Shown one piece after another: positions 3,635 to 31,621 of a stretch of DNA of 39,560 nt (positions are counted from its first letter, which is position 1; every line of letters starts with the position of its first letter). Source of the DNA: a virus; IMG/VR virus record IMGVR_UViG_3300031873_000012, positions 1 to 39,560 of that record; one strand, written 5' to 3'. Under the pieces are notes generated by a model, which ran no database searches, was not told the DNA's origin, and worked only from the letters and a program-made list of their open reading frames with translations. Position numbers and translations under genes: made by a program.

Positions 3635-4012
3635 TTACGCTTTCTCGCCCAGAAAAACTTTTACGGTTGTTGCGGTCGCCAAAACACGAGTGAGATCGAT
3701 TGCCGTGATCGGAACCGTTTGCGACATCAGAATCAAAAATGAGTCGAATGGAATTGCCTGCGTCGTGCCATCCGCGCTTGTCAAACGCGCTTTAACTTTG
3801 CCGCCGAGCGCTTTCAAAATTACCACATGCGCATTGACAAGCGTTCCGAATGGAACCGCAACCGGCGTATCGACCGAGAGTGTTATGTCCGAGGGTTGTT
3901 TGCTCTTCAACGCAAGCGGCTCATCAATCGGCGTCGCCAACGAAGGGTCGAGCGACGTCAACGAGAGCGGCGTGACGGTATAGCTGCCGGATAAAACGAA
4001 TTGGTCGGCCAT
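3635..4012 (-). CDS. Putative virion protein (125 aa)
   Basis: This beta-rich protein alternates Ser/Thr/Val/Leu and ends in a VKVFLGEKA segment. It has no cysteines, signal peptide or membrane helix. Together with its downstream neighbour it looks like a pair of small structural proteins, perhaps head decoration or fibre attachment. The start at 4012 has only a weak GAG-type binding site, so the exact start is less sure. No homology is recognised. Confidence 0.6.
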   Translation of the reverse strand: MADQFVLSGSYTVTPLSLTSLDPSLATPIDEPLALKSKQPSDITLSVDTPVAVPFGTLVNAHVVILKALGGKVKARLTSADGTTQAIPFDSFLILMSQTVPITAIDLTRVLATATTVKVFLGEKA

Positions 4013-16563: not shown

Positions 16564-16772
16564 TTCATCCCTTCCACTCCGCAAATACTGCAGACAAAGA
16601 TGGTCACCGAAGATCCTTCGACTTGTTTGGAATGTTCTGCGGCACGAAAATTATGTGTGCACCCATCTCGGAGCGTACCTAATTTTCTACGTTGGAGTTG
16701 AAGTCGATTCTGAAGTTTATCAATGTCTCGAGTCAGTTGTCGGCATTTAAATCTTCTGTCTTGAAGATTCAT
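16560..16772 (-). CDS. Small Cys-containing coiled-coil protein (70 aa)
   Basis: A helical, basic N-terminal half (LTRDIDKLQNRLQLQRRKL, about 14-32) is followed by CTHNF and a C-terminal VCSICGVEGMK. These cysteines and the histidine could hold one zinc ion in a C(x)nC...CxxC arrangement. Start and stop overlap neighbours as ATGA, so it is translationally coupled on both sides. The two-helix plus zinc-tail layout resembles small regulatory phage proteins, but no family is recognised. Confidence 0.6.
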   Translation of the reverse strand: MNLQDRRFKCRQLTRDIDKLQNRLQLQRRKLGTLRDGCTHNFRAAEHSKQVEGSSVTIFVCSICGVEGMK

Positions 16773-17071
16773 TTCATCCCTTCCCTTTGTTTGAGAGGTA
16801 GGTTCCAACCGACGTCAACGCCGAACCGATAGGCGACTCGCATCGCTGATAGGATCAATTCTATACTTTCCTCGCGATGATTGAGTTCATCGGTCGATAA
16901 CATCGACACCATCGATTCCACACTCTTTGCGTGTTCGCGCATCGATATTTCATACTCTCTCCGAATCTCGTACCGCTGCTTTATTGCCATTGCGGCGGCT
17001 TCCTTCATGTCGCTTTCATCGACTAAAGCCTTGGCTTCATCGATCGTGCTCTGTGAAATCGTGATTCCCAT
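16769..17071 (-). CDS. Small paralogous-family protein (100 aa)
   Basis: It begins MGITISQSTIDEAKALVDESD, a leader shared almost exactly with the proteins at 17284-17562 and 17080-17271. The helical middle has Glu/Arg repeats, and the C-terminus (ESIELILSAMRVAYRFGVDVG) is a diverged version of the family's ALRSAYLLG ending. A perfect AGGAGGT site stands 4 bases before the ATG. Likely a small helical protein of host takeover type; the function is unknown. Confidence 0.65.
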   Translation of the reverse strand: MGITISQSTIDEAKALVDESDMKEAAAMAIKQRYEIRREYEISMREHAKSVESMVSMLSTDELNHREESIELILSAMRVAYRFGVDVGWNLPLKQREGMK

Positions 17072-17079
17072 TTTACCTC

Positions 17080-17271
17080 CTAGCATCTCTTCCAATTTGA
17101 CCTGAATACAATAATTTCCTCGAGGAGTTGTTTACGTTCACTGTTTGAGTAACAGGAAGGATTGATGATGTATCCTTGAACTCTATCTAACAGACTCAAG
17201 ATCGCTTTACATTCCGCTTCTTTTCTTTCACGTCCTTCATCGGTCGTGCTCTGTGAAATCGTGATTCCCAT
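17080..17271 (-). CDS. Small protein with the shared MGITISQST leader (63 aa)
   Basis: The first 12 residues (MGITISQSTTDE) match the neighbouring paralogues, but the rest (CKAILSLLDRVQGYIINPSCYSNS...) is unrelated, so the leader has been joined to a different body. The body is helical with three cysteines. The stop lies inside the ribosome binding site of the next gene. The function is unknown. Confidence 0.6.
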   Translation of the reverse strand: MGITISQSTTDEGRERKEAECKAILSLLDRVQGYIINPSCYSNSERKQLLEEIIVFRSNWKRC

Positions 17272-17283
17272 TTTTTCATTCCC

Positions 17284-17562
17284 TCATCGCAGTCGCCCGG
17301 CCTGGACGCCGAGCAAATATGCGGATCGAAGTGCTTCTAGGATTGTTTCTATGCTTTCTATGCTTTCTCTTCGAGAAGATTGATGCTTGCGATTAAAGAA
17401 GTCTTCCACATCCTTTGCGAGCGAAGTCATTGTCTCATCGTCCGCCATCGATCTCGCTAGAATTTCTTGCCTCGCTGCCATTGCGGCGGCGTACTCTCTA
17501 TCGCGTTCATCGACCGAGGCCTTGGCTTCATCGATCGTGCTCTGTGAAATAGTGACACTCAT
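17284..17562 (-). CDS. Small paralogous-family protein (92 aa)
   Basis: The full-length member of the local family: leader MSVTISQSTIDEAKASVDERD, middle EILARSMADDETMTSLAKDV, C-terminus ESIETILEALRSAYLLGVQAGRLR. The ATG at 17562 has a GGAG site; a longer frame to 17592 does not. Predicted nearly all-helical and acidic-amphipathic. Related copies at 16378 and 16769 suggest recent tandem duplication. The function is unknown. Confidence 0.65.
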   Translation of the reverse strand: MSVTISQSTIDEAKASVDERDREYAAAMAARQEILARSMADDETMTSLAKDVEDFFNRKHQSSRRESIESIETILEALRSAYLLGVQAGRLR

Positions 17563-17575
17563 TTTTTCTCCGTTT

Positions 17576-18007
17576 CTATTGGTCAAAATCAAACACTATC
17601 CGCAATTCGTCCGTGGCTCTTCCCCCAAGCATAGCCTCCAAACTCGCTAAAATATAAAACCACGAAGGGTCGAGGACATTCAAAAGAGTCGTCTCGGAGT
17701 TTACTCGAAGATCCGTGAAGGTCTGCCCATAGTTCACAGCCAGCAACTCTTTCAAAGTTAAATAAGATGCGTTGTATCCCGCGTGGTTGTGCCAGGGACG
17801 ACGTCTGTTTCGGGGTGACGCTTCGTCTGTTGGATAACCTCGTGGCGTTGGAAGTATTGCCGGAACACCTGCATCGTTTATAACTTCACCACCCGTTAAG
17901 AAGGCGAAGCGAGCATAGTTGCGATCCGATAACGATTCGGGCGCGTTTAAACTAGCCCATACCCCATCGGTTTTGATCTCAACGTAAGGATTAATATCAC
18001 AGCCCAT
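17576..18007 (-). CDS. MGCDI-type conserved phage protein
   Basis: The N-terminus MGCDINPYVEIKTDG is the signature of a protein family widespread in phages and prophages (usually MGCDIHxYVE). The family also shows the internal RNYARFAFLTG and PTPRGYPTDEASP segments seen here (about residues 28-38 and 53-65), then HNHAGYNASYLTLKELL. The biochemical role has not been established to my knowledge. Here the usual His of the CDIH motif is Asn. Length 143 is within the normal range. Confidence 0.75.
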   Translation of the reverse strand: MGCDINPYVEIKTDGVWASLNAPESLSDRNYARFAFLTGGEVINDAGVPAILPTPRGYPTDEASPRNRRRPWHNHAGYNASYLTLKELLAVNYGQTFTDLRVNSETTLLNVLDPSWFYILASLEAMLGGRATDELRIVFDFDQ

Positions 18008-18441: not shown

Positions 18442-18969
18442 TCAAGGCTCGAAGCCCGGTTTGTAGTTTGTAATCTCCCTCTCTAACTCTTTCGCGACAC
18501 GCTCTCTGATAATGCAATCGTCAGCGTGATTGGCGACCGCGGGCACTACTTCGAGCACTCCTTTGATCATCTTGATGGCAGTGATAATCGATTCGGCATC
18601 ATCGTCGCGGTAATCTTTATCCAATGTCACTACCAAACCTTTATATTTGTCGGTCATGTTTTCTTCCTTTATCCTCTCAAGCTTTTCCCCAAGCCACGCA
18701 GCGTATTTCATGTTTTCTTCCTTTATCCTCTCAAGCTTTTCCCCAAGCCACGCAGCGTATTTGATGTCATCGGCATGACAACGCGCGCAAACATCTTCGC
18801 TGTAGAATTCGACTTGGCCTTTATGATTATCGCATCCGTGGTACCTGCACTTCGTGTTGTCAATTTTAGTTATCCGAAATGGCCCGCACTTTTCCTCAAG
18901 CCACGCAGCGTATTGATCGCGATCTTCTTCTGGATCATCTTGATTGATCCAATCGGCCATTTCACCCAT
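18442..18969 (-). CDS. Fused small protein with internal repeat (175 aa)
   Basis: Residues 1-65 carry CxxxxC and CxxC motifs (KCRYHGC, VCARCHADD), a possible zinc knuckle. Residues about 69-104 are two exact copies of an 18-residue helix beginning KYAAWLGEKLERIKEEN; a third, diverged copy (QYAAWLEEKCG) lies near residue 19. The last 71 residues (MTDKYKGLVVTLDKDYRDDDAE...) match a small phage protein normally free-standing. An AAGGAAGAAAAC site before its ATG at 18657 could still start it independently. So this frame looks like two genes merged in frame by a repeat. The functions are unknown. Confidence 0.65.
   Translation of the reverse strand: MGEMADWINQDDPEEDRDQYAAWLEEKCGPFRITKIDNTKCRYHGCDNHKGQVEFYSEDVCARCHADDIKYAAWLGEKLERIKEENMKYAAWLGEKLERIKEENMTDKYKGLVVTLDKDYRDDDAESIITAIKMIKGVLEVVPAVANHADDCIIRERVAKELEREITNYKPGFEP
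18655..18762 (-). repeat. 54-bp perfect tandem repeat carrying a start site
   Basis: Positions 18655-18708 and 18709-18762 are identical 54-base units. On the minus strand each unit ends with AAGGAAGAAAAC just before an ATG, so each copy duplicates a ribosome binding site as well as 18 codons. A partial third copy (about 24 bases with small changes) lies near 18892-18915. Confidence 0.9.
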
Positions 18970-20344: not shown

Positions 20345-20658
20345 GGTTCTCCCTTTACCTTCATCGTCGACTTGTACGCCCTCTTCCTTCTCAGCAAATG
20401 CCCACGCACGGCTTCCTTTTCCGTCGCGTAGCGCACGCATTCGCCATCATCCGGTCCGCCAAAAACCATCGTCTCAAAAATAAGTGGCGCACCTTTGTCA
20501 TTCTGACCGTGACTACTTCCAAGCCAAACGGTCGACACACGAATCTTGCCGCCCGTCAAACCAATTACACGGTAAGTGTTATCGTTCAACAACTCGATCC
20601 ACTTCTCAAAACTGATTGACTCTCCATGTTTGTCGCGCCAGTCGATTTCGGTTTTCAT
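20341..20658 (-). CDS. Hypothetical protein (105 aa)
   Basis: A soluble protein with an N-terminal MKTEIDWRDKHGESISFEK, a beta-rich middle (YRVIGLTGGKIRVSTVWLGS) and a C-terminal basic helix. The segment IFETMVFGGPDDGECVRYAT with the GGPDDGE pattern is reminiscent of many small phage proteins, but I cannot name a family. Coupled to the zinc-ribbon gene (ATGA overlap). The start at 20658 follows GAAGGAG. Confidence 0.65.
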   Translation of the reverse strand: MKTEIDWRDKHGESISFEKWIELLNDNTYRVIGLTGGKIRVSTVWLGSSHGQNDKGAPLIFETMVFGGPDDGECVRYATEKEAVRGHLLRRKRAYKSTMKVKGEP

Positions 20659-20927
20659 CGTCCGCACTCCTTCAGGCACTTGTAAAAATAACAGGACGCT
20701 TCGGCGTTCTTGATCCCGATGAGGCGCCTCTCAACATCGGGCGCTTCGCCGGCGTCCTCTATCCAAACATTTCCGTTCGCCGCCTTCGCCACCTGCTCGT
20801 CTTGCTCTATGACGAGACCTCCATCGCTCGAGATCTTGCACTCAAAACAGAGCGCGTCCTCGCGGCATATGACCGCCTCGATTCCACAGCCCGTGAATAT
20901 GAGCATCGCCAACGCTAGGCTTTTCAT
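20655..20927 (-). CDS. Small lipoprotein (90 aa)
   Basis: A short signal peptide (MKSLALAMLIF) leads to a lipobox-like LIFTGC, so Cys14 would be lipidated and the protein anchored in a membrane facing the periplasm or outside. The mature part has six more cysteines (CREDALCFEC..., CYFYKCLKEC), suggesting disulfides. Possible roles are superinfection exclusion or an Rz1-like spanin; Rz1 would usually be embedded in Rz and proline-rich, which this is not. It is the first gene after the 500-base non-coding region. Confidence 0.7.
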   Translation of the reverse strand: MKSLALAMLIFTGCGIEAVICREDALCFECKISSDGGLVIEQDEQVAKAANGNVWIEDAGEAPDVERRLIGIKNAEASCYFYKCLKECGR

Positions 20928-20942
20928 TTTTGCTACCCCCGA

Positions 20943-21082
20943 ATTGCGTAGTTTTACCTCTAACTATTTTAACAGCAACCTGCCGATTTCTAACGATTTT
21001 TGTAGGAACCTAAACATTTCAATTGCGTCGCAGCTTGCGTACGATTGCGTTGTTACGTATTCTTGAGTCCTCCGAATTGCGT
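20943..21082. repeat. Five iteron-like ATTGCGT copies
   Basis: ATTGCGT (or CTTGCGT once) occurs at 20943-20949, 21022-21028, 21034-21040, 21044-21050 and 21076-21082, all in the same orientation, inside a gene-free stretch. The outer copies share a longer CCGAATTGCGT. Clustering of a 7-mer like this suggests binding sites for a regulator or replication initiator. No protein partner can be assigned. Confidence 0.5.
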
Positions 21083-21120
21083 GCCGCTCGATCTTTTCTG
21101 AGGAGGTCGGGCGGCATTTT

Positions 21121-21208
21121 CTTTTGCCCCGCGCGTGCGGGGAATGCTGAGATAAGTCAACAGACAGATCAATGGGCACGGTTCAGCCCCGCGTGTGCGG
21201 GGAAACAA
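21121..21208. CRISPR. Mini-array candidate: two type I-E-like repeat cores
   Basis: GCCCCGCGCGTGCGGGGAA (21126-21144) and GCCCCGCGTGTGCGGGGAA (21186-21204) are exactly 60 bases apart. Each core is the palindromic CCCCGC-N4-GCGGGG stem of type I-E CRISPR repeats, and the second is flanked by CGGTTCA, matching the full I-E repeat on that side. The first copy is degenerate at that flank, as terminal repeats often are. About 33 bases separate the repeats, the length of one I-E spacer. No cas gene is present. Two unrelated hairpins are the alternative. Confidence 0.5.
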
Positions 21209-21210
21209 AA

Positions 21211-21424
21211 TGAGGAAGCCAGGCGGGAGTCGAACCCGCTTGAGCGGTACGGCCCGGAATCGAACCGGGACATCCGGGTTGTCCAGGATCCTGCTAAATC
21301 GTGATGCCGCCCTTGTCGGCCACGTTCGGGCTTCCTGTATCCCCCAGTCGCCTAGGGTCCCCGACTTTGAATTTCGCTCACGCCTGGTCGCGTGCGTGTC
21401 ACCGTCCACGCCGCTGGCTTCCTC
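21211..21424 (-). other. tRNA-like region with two T-arm hairpins
   Basis: On the minus strand two perfect T-arm-like hairpins stand in tandem: CCCGG-TTCGATT-CCGGG (about 21242-21258) and GCGGG-TTCGACT-CCCGC (about 21221-21237). Both have canonical TTCRANN loops. The region is bounded by an inverted repeat, GAGGAAGCCAG (5' end, near 21424) with CTGGCTTCCTC (3' end, near 21211). An alternative 7-bp acceptor-like pair GGAAGCC/GGCTTCC encloses 122 bases. I could not fold a normal cloverleaf with D-arm and anticodon. It may be a degenerate tRNA pair, an attachment site with tRNA ends, or an unusual structured RNA. Confidence 0.45.
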
Positions 21425-21432
21425 GCGCTTCA

Positions 21433-22053
21433 TCATCGACATGACTCGATGTCGTTCAAAATTTTTCCGCCTCTCACCATCATCGTGGGAGCCCATCCAT
21501 GCTCGACGAAATTCAACGCCGCCTCTCTCGAGTAACCTTGCGTGACGAGATAGTCGACAAACGTTTCCTTCGTCGGAAATACCGGCGAGATGGGCGAGCC
21601 TTCGCTTACCGTTTCCCAGAGCTGATACCCCTCACCCTCGGGCGGTAACTCTTCCTCCCACGCTTCGTACTTTGCTTTGACCGCGGCATCGATGCCTGTA
21701 CTATCACAGATAGTGCACCTTCCCCAACCGGGGAGACCTGCTATCTCGAGGAGTTTTTGTTTGAGACTGAACGTCTGTCCCCATTCTAGAAGCACCACTC
21801 CTTTGGGCTCGCCCGATAACGCGACGAATAACTCATGGAGTTCTTTTGCGCGTGCGTTTCTATTGGCATCCGTGGGGTTGGTCGCCGATATCTGAAACTC
21901 TTCCAACCATTTATTGAACCAGCGGTCACCCGCCGTTGCGCCTGTGCCGCCACAATGCGCGCATTGCTTCCAGTACGGATTCAGAAAACCTTGCCACACC
22001 TTGCGCAAAGGCCAATTGAAATCAAGAGGCACCCGATAGATTTCTCTTCCCAT
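21433..22053 (-). CDS. Conserved phage protein with CxxCxGTG motif (206 aa)
   Basis: The N-terminus MGREIYRVPLDFNWPL followed by VWQGFLNPYW and CAHCGGTG (about 31-38) is typical of a conserved phage family of unknown role. A second CTICDSTG (about 113-120) completes a DnaJ-like zinc site. The C-terminal half has the TKETFVDYLVTQGYSREAAL segment often seen in this family. Length 206 is normal. The ATG at 22053 has a GGGAG site, preceded by a small hairpin. The function is unknown; it may bind zinc as a scaffold or antitermination-type factor. Confidence 0.75.
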   Translation of the reverse strand: MGREIYRVPLDFNWPLRKVWQGFLNPYWKQCAHCGGTGATAGDRWFNKWLEEFQISATNPTDANRNARAKELHELFVALSGEPKGVVLLEWGQTFSLKQKLLEIAGLPGWGRCTICDSTGIDAAVKAKYEAWEEELPPEGEGYQLWETVSEGSPISPVFPTKETFVDYLVTQGYSREAALNFVEHGWAPTMMVRGGKILNDIESCR

Positions 22054-28655: not shown

Positions 28656-29939
28656 TTATCTGGCATCCGTCAAAAGATTTGGCTCCTTTCCCGTTGCGTC
28701 CTTGAACCGTTGCAGAGCCACAGCAACGTATCCTGGGTTAATCTCGATAGCACGGCACTTCCTGCCAAGCTGTTCGCAGGCGATCAGCGAGGTGCCACTT
28801 CCGCAAAATGGCTCTGCGACAACGTCGCCAGCCTTCGAACTGTTCGAGAGCGCGCGTAGATACAACTCGACTGGCTTCATGGTCGGATGAAGGTCGCTCT
28901 TATGTGGCTTGTCGATCTCCCACGTCGAGAACTGGCTGGCATCTCCGTAAAACTTGTGTGACCCGTCAACCCATCCGTAAAGGATCGGCTCGTGCTTGTA
29001 GTGATAATCACAGCGCCCCAAGACGTGATTGTTTTTGACCCACACTAGCATGTGGCGCAGTGGAAAACCGCTTTGGCGCAAAGCTAGGAGGAGGAGGAGG
29101 AGGTCGCCTCCCTGCGGCCCGGTCACATAGTAGGAGGCGCCAGGCGAAAGCGATTCGCGGATGGCTGTGAATGCGGCGACCCAGAACGCGCTCATCTCAT
29201 CCGGTGTCTGATGATCACCATCGATAGGTGTCTGAATGCAATTGCCCCGGTGACCTGCATTCAAAAACTTGTTCTTCGACGCATAAGACACACCGTACGG
29301 CGGATCGGTGACGATGATGCTCGCGAGGTCTTTTCCGAATAACCGCTGCACGTCCTCTGCCTTCGTGGTGTCTCCGCACAAAAGCCGGTGCTCACCAAAT
29401 TCCCATAATTGCCCCGTCTCGACCTTCCACTCCTTCCGCAACTCATCTGCTCGATCGATCTGTGGCTCGGCATCACTTAATTCAACATCAGACACATTCA
29501 ACGATAACATTTCAGTTATGTCTGATTGTGTATAACCAACACCACTCAACAAATCTTCGCTTTGAAAACTACTCATCATCGCAACGAGTTCTTTTTCATC
29601 CCAACCGCCGAGCTCAACCAATCGATTGCTTGCAATCAAATACGCTTCGGCCTCTTTGTCGTTCTTACTCCACCAGCCACGAATAACCGGGATGATCCAA
29701 TCGCCATTTTCATTGACGACAACACCATCAGGCGGCGTTCCTCCCGATGATTTCAATTTTAACAGCGCGGCTTTTCGCCCGTGCCCCGCTACAATTCGAT
29801 TCGTTCGCTCATCTAAAACAATCGGCTCAACATAACCAAAACGACCGATGCTGTTTTCAATTTGATCGCTGTGCAATTTTGGATTTTTAAGAGCGTCTTG
29901 CAACGCATCAATGGGCAAGCCTTCTATTCGCAAACTCAT
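28656..29939 (-). CDS. ParB-like domain / N4-N6 DNA methyltransferase fusion
   Basis: Residues 1-145 have ParB/Srx-type features (FGYVEPIVLDERTNRIVAGHGR, about 34-55, in two pieces). The rest is a beta-class methyltransferase with DPPY (212-215) before FCGSGTS (378-384), typical of N4-cytosine/N6-adenine enzymes. This fusion occurs in many phages and probably couples a nuclease-like or DNA-binding ParB fold to methylation. A CTC-repeat codes for six leucines at about residue 280. The ATG at 29939 has a GGGGG site; the longer frame starts are weak. No restriction partner is seen. Confidence 0.85.
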   Translation of the reverse strand: MSLRIEGLPIDALQDALKNPKLHSDQIENSIGRFGYVEPIVLDERTNRIVAGHGRKAALLKLKSSGGTPPDGVVVNENGDWIIPVIRGWWSKNDKEAEAYLIASNRLVELGGWDEKELVAMMSSFQSEDLLSGVGYTQSDITEMLSLNVSDVELSDAEPQIDRADELRKEWKVETGQLWEFGEHRLLCGDTTKAEDVQRLFGKDLASIIVTDPPYGVSYASKNKFLNAGHRGNCIQTPIDGDHQTPDEMSAFWVAAFTAIRESLSPGASYYVTGPQGGDLLLLLLALRQSGFPLRHMLVWVKNNHVLGRCDYHYKHEPILYGWVDGSHKFYGDASQFSTWEIDKPHKSDLHPTMKPVELYLRALSNSSKAGDVVAEPFCGSGTSLIACEQLGRKCRAIEINPGYVAVALQRFKDATGKEPNLLTDAR

Positions 29940-29950
29940 TTTATCCCCCA

Positions 29951-31621
29951 TCAACTCATTAGTTTTCCATCTTCGATTTTTAAATGTAACGCTGGATCAA
30001 GCAAGTCTTTTAAATCTTCGTCATGCGAAATCACCACGACCGCGCGACGATTGGCGAGTTCTCGAACCGCTTCAACCACCCTCGGAACGCCGACCGAATC
30101 GAGACCGTCGAAGCACTCGTCGACGAACAGCGTTCCCGCCATTGTTCCGTGCGCCGCACTCGAGATCTCAGAGAGAGCAAAGAGCAACGCCACATCGATT
30201 CGACGTCGCTCCCCCGCGCTCGCCGCCTTGTAGCCATACCCGCCGCCGGCTCCCTCGATCTCGAGGCTGATTGAGTCGGTCACGCCGCCCGATTTCTTTT
30301 CCTGGTAGGGCGACAAACGCAAGCGCAACCCCTCGCCGGCGATACGCTGAAGCCAGGTATTAGACATTTCCGAGATGGCGTTCAGCGTCGCCCCGAGCAC
30401 ATGCGCGCGGACGCCTTTTGTGCCGAGTACCTTTTCAGTAACGCCAAGCTCTTTGAAATCAACTGTCACAGCCTGTAAAATATCAGCCCATTTTTTCTCG
30501 AACTCGATTGCCGCCTTCTCGTCTATTGCCGCTTTCTCTTTGCGCTCCAATGCGCCCGCTCTCTGTGAGTCGTATCGAACTTTCTCCTCGGTGAGAGATT
30601 TCGCTTTCGAGATTCGTTCTCTGATTTCCTGTAGCGCTTCTTTGATGTCCTTCGACTCTGACTCGAACTCGTGCCGCTGCTCTTCGTTCTCGATGACACT
30701 GGCGGCGGTTGCGGCCTTTGCTTTCTGCAATTCAGTTCGTTTTGATTCGACCTCTGCTTGAGCCTTCGCCCGAGATTGTGGCGGAATCTTTTGATCACAC
30801 GTCGGGCAAACGGTGGTGTTGAGGTGCACGTCAAAACATTTCATGGTGCTCTTGAGCTCGAGCTCGGCGAGCGCCACGTTCTCATCGATCTCTTTCCGCT
30901 CCGCTCTCAATTTTGATATCAACTCGACATTGACTCGCTCTGCCTGTGTGAGTCGAATGAGCCGCGCGTTTAACTCTGTCAGATCTTCAATCTCGAACGT
31001 CTTCTCAAACGACTTCAGCACGTCCTCTGAAAGCGCCAATAACTTTTGAGCAGACTCTTTTCTCGCCGTTCCCATCACGAGACCGTTCTCGGCTTTATGA
31101 ATTGAGACCTCTGTGTTTCTCAAATCCCCTCGACACTCCTCGAGAGCCGCATCAAACTTTTCTATTCCGATGAACGCTTCGAGCAATCGCTTCCGCTCGG
31201 AGTCGGTCGACTGCGTGAAGCACGCGATATCGGTGGCGCTCAAGACATGCGTTCTCTGCCAAACCCAATGAGAGCCTATCTCTGATTCGAGCGCTTCTTG
31301 TGCCTTGGTCGTCGAGGCGAAGTTGATCTCTTTAGCGTTTTCACTGCGTGTGTCATACCAAAGCAAGTTTATCTTTGCGCCAAGCTTCCCACGAATTGCG
31401 GCCACAGTATTGGTGAATACCTTGACTTCGCCGTCCTCGGGGGTCCATGGCGTTGTACCTCTGAGAGTCTTCCCCCAAAGCCCAACCGACACCGCCTCGA
31501 CGAGACTTGACTTGCCCGAGCCATTCGGACCCGTAACGAGAACGATTCCTTTCTCTGGCAGTGTGACTTCACTCTCTCTGTGCTTCATGAAATTCTTGAG
31601 CACTACTTTTTGAATCTGCAT
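29951..31621 (-). CDS. sbcC: SbcC/Rad50/gp46-like ATPase subunit
   Basis: An SMC-like ATPase that, with SbcD, processes DNA ends for recombination-dependent replication. Walker A GPNGSGKS is at 31-38, a zinc hook CPTC at 272-275 flanked by coiled coils, the ABC signature SAGERRR begins at 468, Walker B LFVDE ends at 502, and an H-loop His is near 533. At 556 residues it is short, as T4 gp46 relatives are. The ATG at 31621 has an AAGGA site and overlaps the preceding small gene by about 50 bases. Follows sbcD, the usual order. Confidence 0.92.
   Translation of the reverse strand: MQIQKVVLKNFMKHRESEVTLPEKGIVLVTGPNGSGKSSLVEAVSVGLWGKTLRGTTPWTPEDGEVKVFTNTVAAIRGKLGAKINLLWYDTRSENAKEINFASTTKAQEALESEIGSHWVWQRTHVLSATDIACFTQSTDSERKRLLEAFIGIEKFDAALEECRGDLRNTEVSIHKAENGLVMGTARKESAQKLLALSEDVLKSFEKTFEIEDLTELNARLIRLTQAERVNVELISKLRAERKEIDENVALAELELKSTMKCFDVHLNTTVCPTCDQKIPPQSRAKAQAEVESKRTELQKAKAATAASVIENEEQRHEFESESKDIKEALQEIRERISKAKSLTEEKVRYDSQRAGALERKEKAAIDEKAAIEFEKKWADILQAVTVDFKELGVTEKVLGTKGVRAHVLGATLNAISEMSNTWLQRIAGEGLRLRLSPYQEKKSGGVTDSISLEIEGAGGGYGYKAASAGERRRIDVALLFALSEISSAAHGTMAGTLFVDECFDGLDSVGVPRVVEAVRELANRRAVVVISHDEDLKDLLDPALHLKIEDGKLMS

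Follow-up and report, generated by a model that had tools for sequence, protein, structure and literature searches.

The 39,560-nucleotide window corresponds to a complete IMG/VR virus record (class linear) from an uncultivated bacteriophage. It contains a pair of repeats flanking a single spacer, and comparison with closely related genomes strongly supports its identification as a type I-E mini-CRISPR array without cas genes. Our fuller reading, to which we assign a probability of roughly 0.7, is that this leaderless, single-spacer array is read through to give a precursor that would be used by the host Cas6e, Cascade, and Cas3, and that its spacers would be gained through recombination. Most likely, the array steers host CRISPR against other invaders.

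Organization of the array and its flanks

Two perfect copies of CCCCGC-N4-GCGGGG, CCCCGCGCGTGCGGGG (21127 to 21142) and CCCCGCGTGTGCGGGG (21187 to 21202), are the only ones in the window, and they are exactly 60 nt apart, as the first-pass annotation had reported; a first-order Markov model built on the window predicts ∼0.002 perfect copies, and the pair at CRISPR spacing is therefore not there by chance. The right copy belongs to R1 (21179 to 21207, minus strand; TGTTTCCCCGCACACGCGGGGCTGAACCG), a complete type I-E-like repeat that is leader-proximal on the minus strand and is the same in all four related genomes, and the left copy belongs to the terminal repeat R2 (21119 to 21147, minus strand; GCATTCCCCGCACGCGCGGGGCAAAAGAA), which has an intact stem-loop and a degenerate 3′ end that reads CAAAAGAA where CTGAACCG is expected. 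The full CGGTTCA flank on the right and degenerate flank on the left, also described at first pass, are present as such, the left copy having TTCTTTT at the same place. A 33-base spacer had been proposed as well, and there is indeed a single spacer (TGCCCATTGATCTGTCTGTTGACTTATCTCA; 21148 to 21178, minus strand), but in the register of the host repeats it is 31 nt long (32 nt in the relatives). The layout is that of a mini-array, with two repeats around one spacer of canonical length and a period of 60 nt (61 nt in the relatives), rather than that of a solitary-repeat RNA anti-CRISPR, since a second repeat lies 60 nt away, with a common block of 19 nt at 95% identity.

The array is oriented on the minus strand, as is every phage gene with an assignable function, including those for the terminase, portal, major head protein, a PolA-type polymerase, a UvsX-like recombinase, and SbcC/SbcD. 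The claimed absence of cas genes from the window holds within the reach of the family scans: 48 window proteins match 23 Pfam families, none of which is Cas, ten large window proteins match no Cas family in PHROGs, and there is no Cas among the best 25 of the 104 matching PADLOC families (methyltransferase, Lmu, mad, and Ptu models). Elsewhere on the minus strand, the gene at 28656 to 29954 codes for a protein with a ParB-like N-terminal part and a C-terminal DNA methyltransferase, three adjacent small open reading frames (ORFs) at 16769 to 17592 have an MGITISQST-like stretch near their starts and form a local paralogous family, and the ORF at 18442 to 18969 contains an internal tandem repeat, KYAAWLGEKLERIKEENM.

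Upstream of the array is a conserved phage gene coding for a 206-aa protein (21433 to 22053, minus strand), whose stop codon adjoins R1 in two relatives (L014 and L040) and so leaves no room for a leader; no leader or promoter was recognized for the array. These features do not fit a leader-driven array that is supplied by Cas1-Cas2, as R1 is at the stop codon in those two genomes and the R2 5′ bases are never TGT. In the window, a variable insert of 225 bp (21208 to 21432, minus strand) separates the stop codon from R1. It is missing in L014 and L040, and a different ORF is in its place in L016/L032; because the content differs in this way (nothing, 225 bp, or another ORF), the upstream edge of the array is another exchange site. 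Close to its two ends, the insert carries the arms of an 11-bp inverted repeat (21212 to 21222 and 21414 to 21424), and it also has two tRNA T-arm-like hairpins (CGGTTCGATTCCG and GCGGGTTCGACTCCCGC), with good folding predicted, and it has no match among plasmids. A tRNA was considered and rejected, as ARAGORN finds none and the Rfam tRNA-Sec score of 20.7 bits falls short of the gathering score, which is 47.

Beside R2 is a 17-pair hairpin with T-rich sequence after it on the plus strand (21081 to 21117), identical in the relatives, which is terminator-like for plus-strand transcription but not for the array strand. A conserved phage ORF of 90 aa (20655 to 20927, minus strand) lies downstream of the array, and upstream of this ORF is a direct repeat with CCGAATTGCGT (20926 to 20949 and 21059 to 21082), with more TACGCAAT-like motifs in between; these are possible operator sites.

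Spacer exchange among close relatives

Two relatives, 3300032516 (L014 and L015) and 3300031746 (L016/L026/L032), come from an IMG/VR scan for the R1-type repeat, and a third, L040, comes from a scan of GTDB species genomes. R1, R2, and the neighboring hairpin are at the same position in all four genomes (the window and three relatives), and the flanks, spanning the 206-aa upstream gene and 500 nt downstream, are 97 to 99% identical to those of the window. Within this frame there are three spacers in the four genomes, namely, the window spacer, S14 (L014/L015 and L040), and S16 (L032); those of the relatives are 32 nt long and wholly different from that of the window, with 6 to 8 of 31 positions matching in pairwise comparisons, which is the chance level. 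S14 is common to two genomes of different source. Only the stretch between invariant repeats is exchanged, and the exchanged sequences are therefore CRISPR spacers rather than terminators, operators, or other binding sites. The distance between the hairpins, variation of which had been proposed as evidence against a CRISPR array, differs by just 1 nt (60 or 61 nt), in keeping with the length of the spacer. With the same repeats, unrelated spacers in the relatives, and a core like that of host I-E repeats, the cas-less I-E pair described at first pass is upheld. In more distant relatives identified by the 206-aa gene (L027 to L031), no such repeats are present in the stretches fetched.

The L014 end and the L015 start, both contigs of 3300032516, stop in or beside the array, where they overlap. 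Assembly was therefore interrupted at the array, which is what a mixed strain population at this position would produce. L040 (1 to 6411) belongs to this phage family but has been assigned to a Candidatus Sigynarchaeota MAG, probably as a result of misbinning, and its right end has a nonmatching stretch.

The edges of R2 are informative as to how spacers may be renewed. R2 is invariant in the relatives from TTCCCC onward, and the three preceding bases are GCA, GTA, or ATG, varying with the spacer and never TGT as in R1. In acquisition by Cas1-Cas2, the second repeat would copy R1 and so begin TGT-TTCCCC. Because the R2 bases beside the spacers differ from the TGT of R1, recombination is favored, and new spacers would arrive by recombination with another array inside the repeats. 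If the crossover fell in the repeat core, a donor array whose repeats start differently would contribute the repeat edge along with the spacer; repeats in IMG/VR contig L008 begin ATG-TTCCCC, as at the S16 edge. A tentative and more specific proposal, which may well prove wrong, is that a fixed two-repeat frame undergoes whole-spacer swaps by homologous recombination with arrays of hosts or coinfecting phages, without Cas1-Cas2, and that the spacers are turned on competitors. If so, the phage would sample the immune memory of its hosts and deploy it against its competitors.

The covarying spacer and R2-edge bases, together with a like design in L023, would be signs of such a route. L023 is a contig that carries the terminase, portal, scaffold, and capsid genes of an unrelated phage. 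Its two-repeat array (3704 to 3795) is located among the structural genes and has a period of 60 nt, one repeat with the core of R1, and a terminal repeat, GCATTCCCCGCACGCGCGAGGCCGAACCT, that is degenerate and starts GCATTCCCCGCACGCGCG. I-E-like two-repeat units at 58 to 62 nt are also present on virus contigs L003, L010, L011, L017, L021, and L024 (one pair), in which viral DNA and flanking host DNA are both possible.

Bacterial counterparts and target searches

The 26-nt core of R1 (TTCCCCGCACACGCGGGGCTGAACCG) is found exactly in 15 stretches in the scan of GTDB species genomes, and the long arrays bearing it are in Hyphomicrobium (with >100 copies), Hyphomicrobiaceae, Rhodospirillales, Hankyongella, and Acidobacteriota. 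Four of the five genomes with the core that were tested code for the I-E Cas7 family (Cas_CT1975, PF09344), and Rhodospirillales MAG L035 has both of the phage loop variants, CACACG and CACGCG. The assignment of the repeats to type I-E at first pass is thereby strongly supported, the core being the same as that of host I-E repeats, and the other condition proposed against a CRISPR array, a lack of any match to host I-E repeats, does not apply. Long I-E arrays of Hyphomicrobium and Rhodospirillales MAGs (L034, L035, L041, and L042) are like the phage array in their identical 26-nt core and period of ∼61 nt, but they have many spacers and are in genomes with I-E Cas7, whereas the phage array has one spacer. 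Because the repeat core and loop variants occur in these bacterial arrays, the phage host is likely an alphaproteobacterium. Comparison of 263 spacers from the fetched arrays with the phage genomes gives a best match of 24/32, with no clear excess over the shuffled-control maximum of 23/32. The annotated phages closest by terminase are ∼25% identical, with no consistent host among them, and the window has no match to annotated phages by megablast.

The window spacer has no credible protospacer in INPHARED phages or PLSDB plasmids, so the search against phage and plasmid sequences proposed in the first-pass annotation yields no credible target, and 594 genomes from two orders of alphaproteobacteria likewise contain none at ≤3 mismatches. 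S14 similarly has none with ≤3 mismatches in 297 alphaproteobacterial genomes, and neither S14 nor S16 has a credible protospacer in phages. Seed scans of IMG/VR with all three spacers, masking the flipped-out positions, return only matches that are poor outside the scanned seed, and a codon-degenerate scan with S14 gives one match (23/32) and no credible target. An S16 match to T4-like SbcD genes (E = 3, gapped; 23/32 ungapped) was judged to be chance. In the genomes at hand, no spacer matches its own carrier phage. The missing protospacer is a weak negative because the metagenomes of origin are outside the search and the mini-arrays published so far mostly carry spacers against related viruses (PMC11656645).

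Proposed function and comparison with known systems

What is observed is R1, one spacer, and R2 at a fixed place, with the spacer swapped among close relatives; from this we infer transcription, Cas6e cutting, crRNA use, and recombinational spacer entry. Minus-strand read-through from the upstream phage genes would give a short precursor RNA, in which, by the established biochemistry of type I-E systems, host Cas6e would cleave each of the repeat hairpins at its 3′ base. The crRNA would thus receive an 8-nt 5′ handle, CUGAACCG, from R1 and its 3′ hairpin from R2, and one complete crRNA only would be made, since the R2 3′ part is lost. The decay of R2 need not disable this crRNA because the degenerate part is the 8-nt segment beyond the cut, and the single crRNA can do without it. 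Host Cascade and Cas3 would then direct the crRNA at DNA matching the spacer, most likely that of a rival phage or a mobile element sharing the cell. Of the first-pass proposal that a mini-array redirects host CRISPR at competitors, the array itself stands, and the role is an extrapolation from it, with no protospacer found for the three spacers in the databases and genomes covered.

The main rival is a decoy role like that of RNA anti-CRISPRs (Racr), in which the transcript ties up host Cas6e or Cas7 and protects the carrier phage, the spacer sequence being immaterial. Solitary phage repeats inhibit I-E systems through repeat mimicry (PMC10651486), and a degenerate R2 and the lack of a protospacer fit a role in which guiding by the spacer is not required. 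Such a role is nevertheless unlikely here, as a canonical 31- to 32-nt spacer lies between two repeats so that both crRNA ends are encoded, spacers are replaced wholesale without drift, and the search method of PMC10651486 itself separates mini-arrays from solitary repeats.

Alternatively, the repeats could be a landing site, providing homology for exchange or integration with host CRISPR arrays, with the spacer as a passenger. Covariation of the spacer and R2-edge bases and the insertions on the upstream side are in keeping with this, and provirus insertion into arrays is among the reports cited in PMC7099407, but no integrated copy was seen, hosts share only short repeats, and the degenerate R2 is unchanged in all relatives, making it a very improbable explanation. 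A shade less credible again is an inactive relic of a former host-array capture, for which the degenerate R2, absent leader, and lack of a target could be cited; because the repeats are identical at up to ∼3% genome divergence and yet three different spacers have been installed, the spacer locus appears to be in use or to have been so very recently. Ordinary tandem hairpins resembling CRISPR repeats, whether terminators or protein-binding sites, are the least credible of all despite the GC-richness of the repeats and the adjoining terminator-like hairpin, as the 26-nt identity with bacterial CRISPR repeats extends beyond the palindrome and neither repeat is followed by a T-run in the orientation of the array; the complete exchange of only the intervening 31 to 32 nt among relatives refutes this reading.

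Cas-less phage mini-arrays are already known (PMC6858448, PMC11656645, and PMC7099407), and the addition here is base-level evidence that whole spacers are exchanged in the leaderless array of a tailed phage. In this phage of a probable alphaproteobacterial host, comparison of almost identical genomes shows spacer exchange base by base, and the renewal of spacers in such arrays is therefore directly testable; easily missed two-repeat arrays can likewise be validated through comparison of close relatives. The array is like Racr in being a cas-less I-E-type CRISPR repeat on a phage, but Racr loci are single repeats (PMC10651486), whereas the present array has a second repeat and, between the two, a spacer that is exchanged. 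Leaders containing promoters and spacers matching a rival virus are features of the mini-arrays of the Saccharolobus portogloboviruses SPV1 and SPV2 (Medvedeva et al. 2019; PMC6858448). They too have one or two spacers, no cas genes, host-like repeats, and the same site with different spacers in related viruses, but their hosts are archaeal, and their leaders and matched rival contrast with a tailed phage that has no recognizable leader and no target found. Bacteriophage mini-arrays are described as leaderless (PMC6858448 and PMC11656645), and recombination with host arrays has been suggested for the renewal of their spacers (PMC6858448). Most spacers in the survey of phage and prophage mini-arrays by Faure et al. 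2019 are reported to be directed at related viruses, according to the descriptions in PMC6858448 and PMC11656645. By those descriptions, the array reported here is like the surveyed ones in being cas-less and leaderless with one spacer and thought to gain it by recombination, and it differs in that no spacer is matched and in that the boundaries of exchange are visible at base level.
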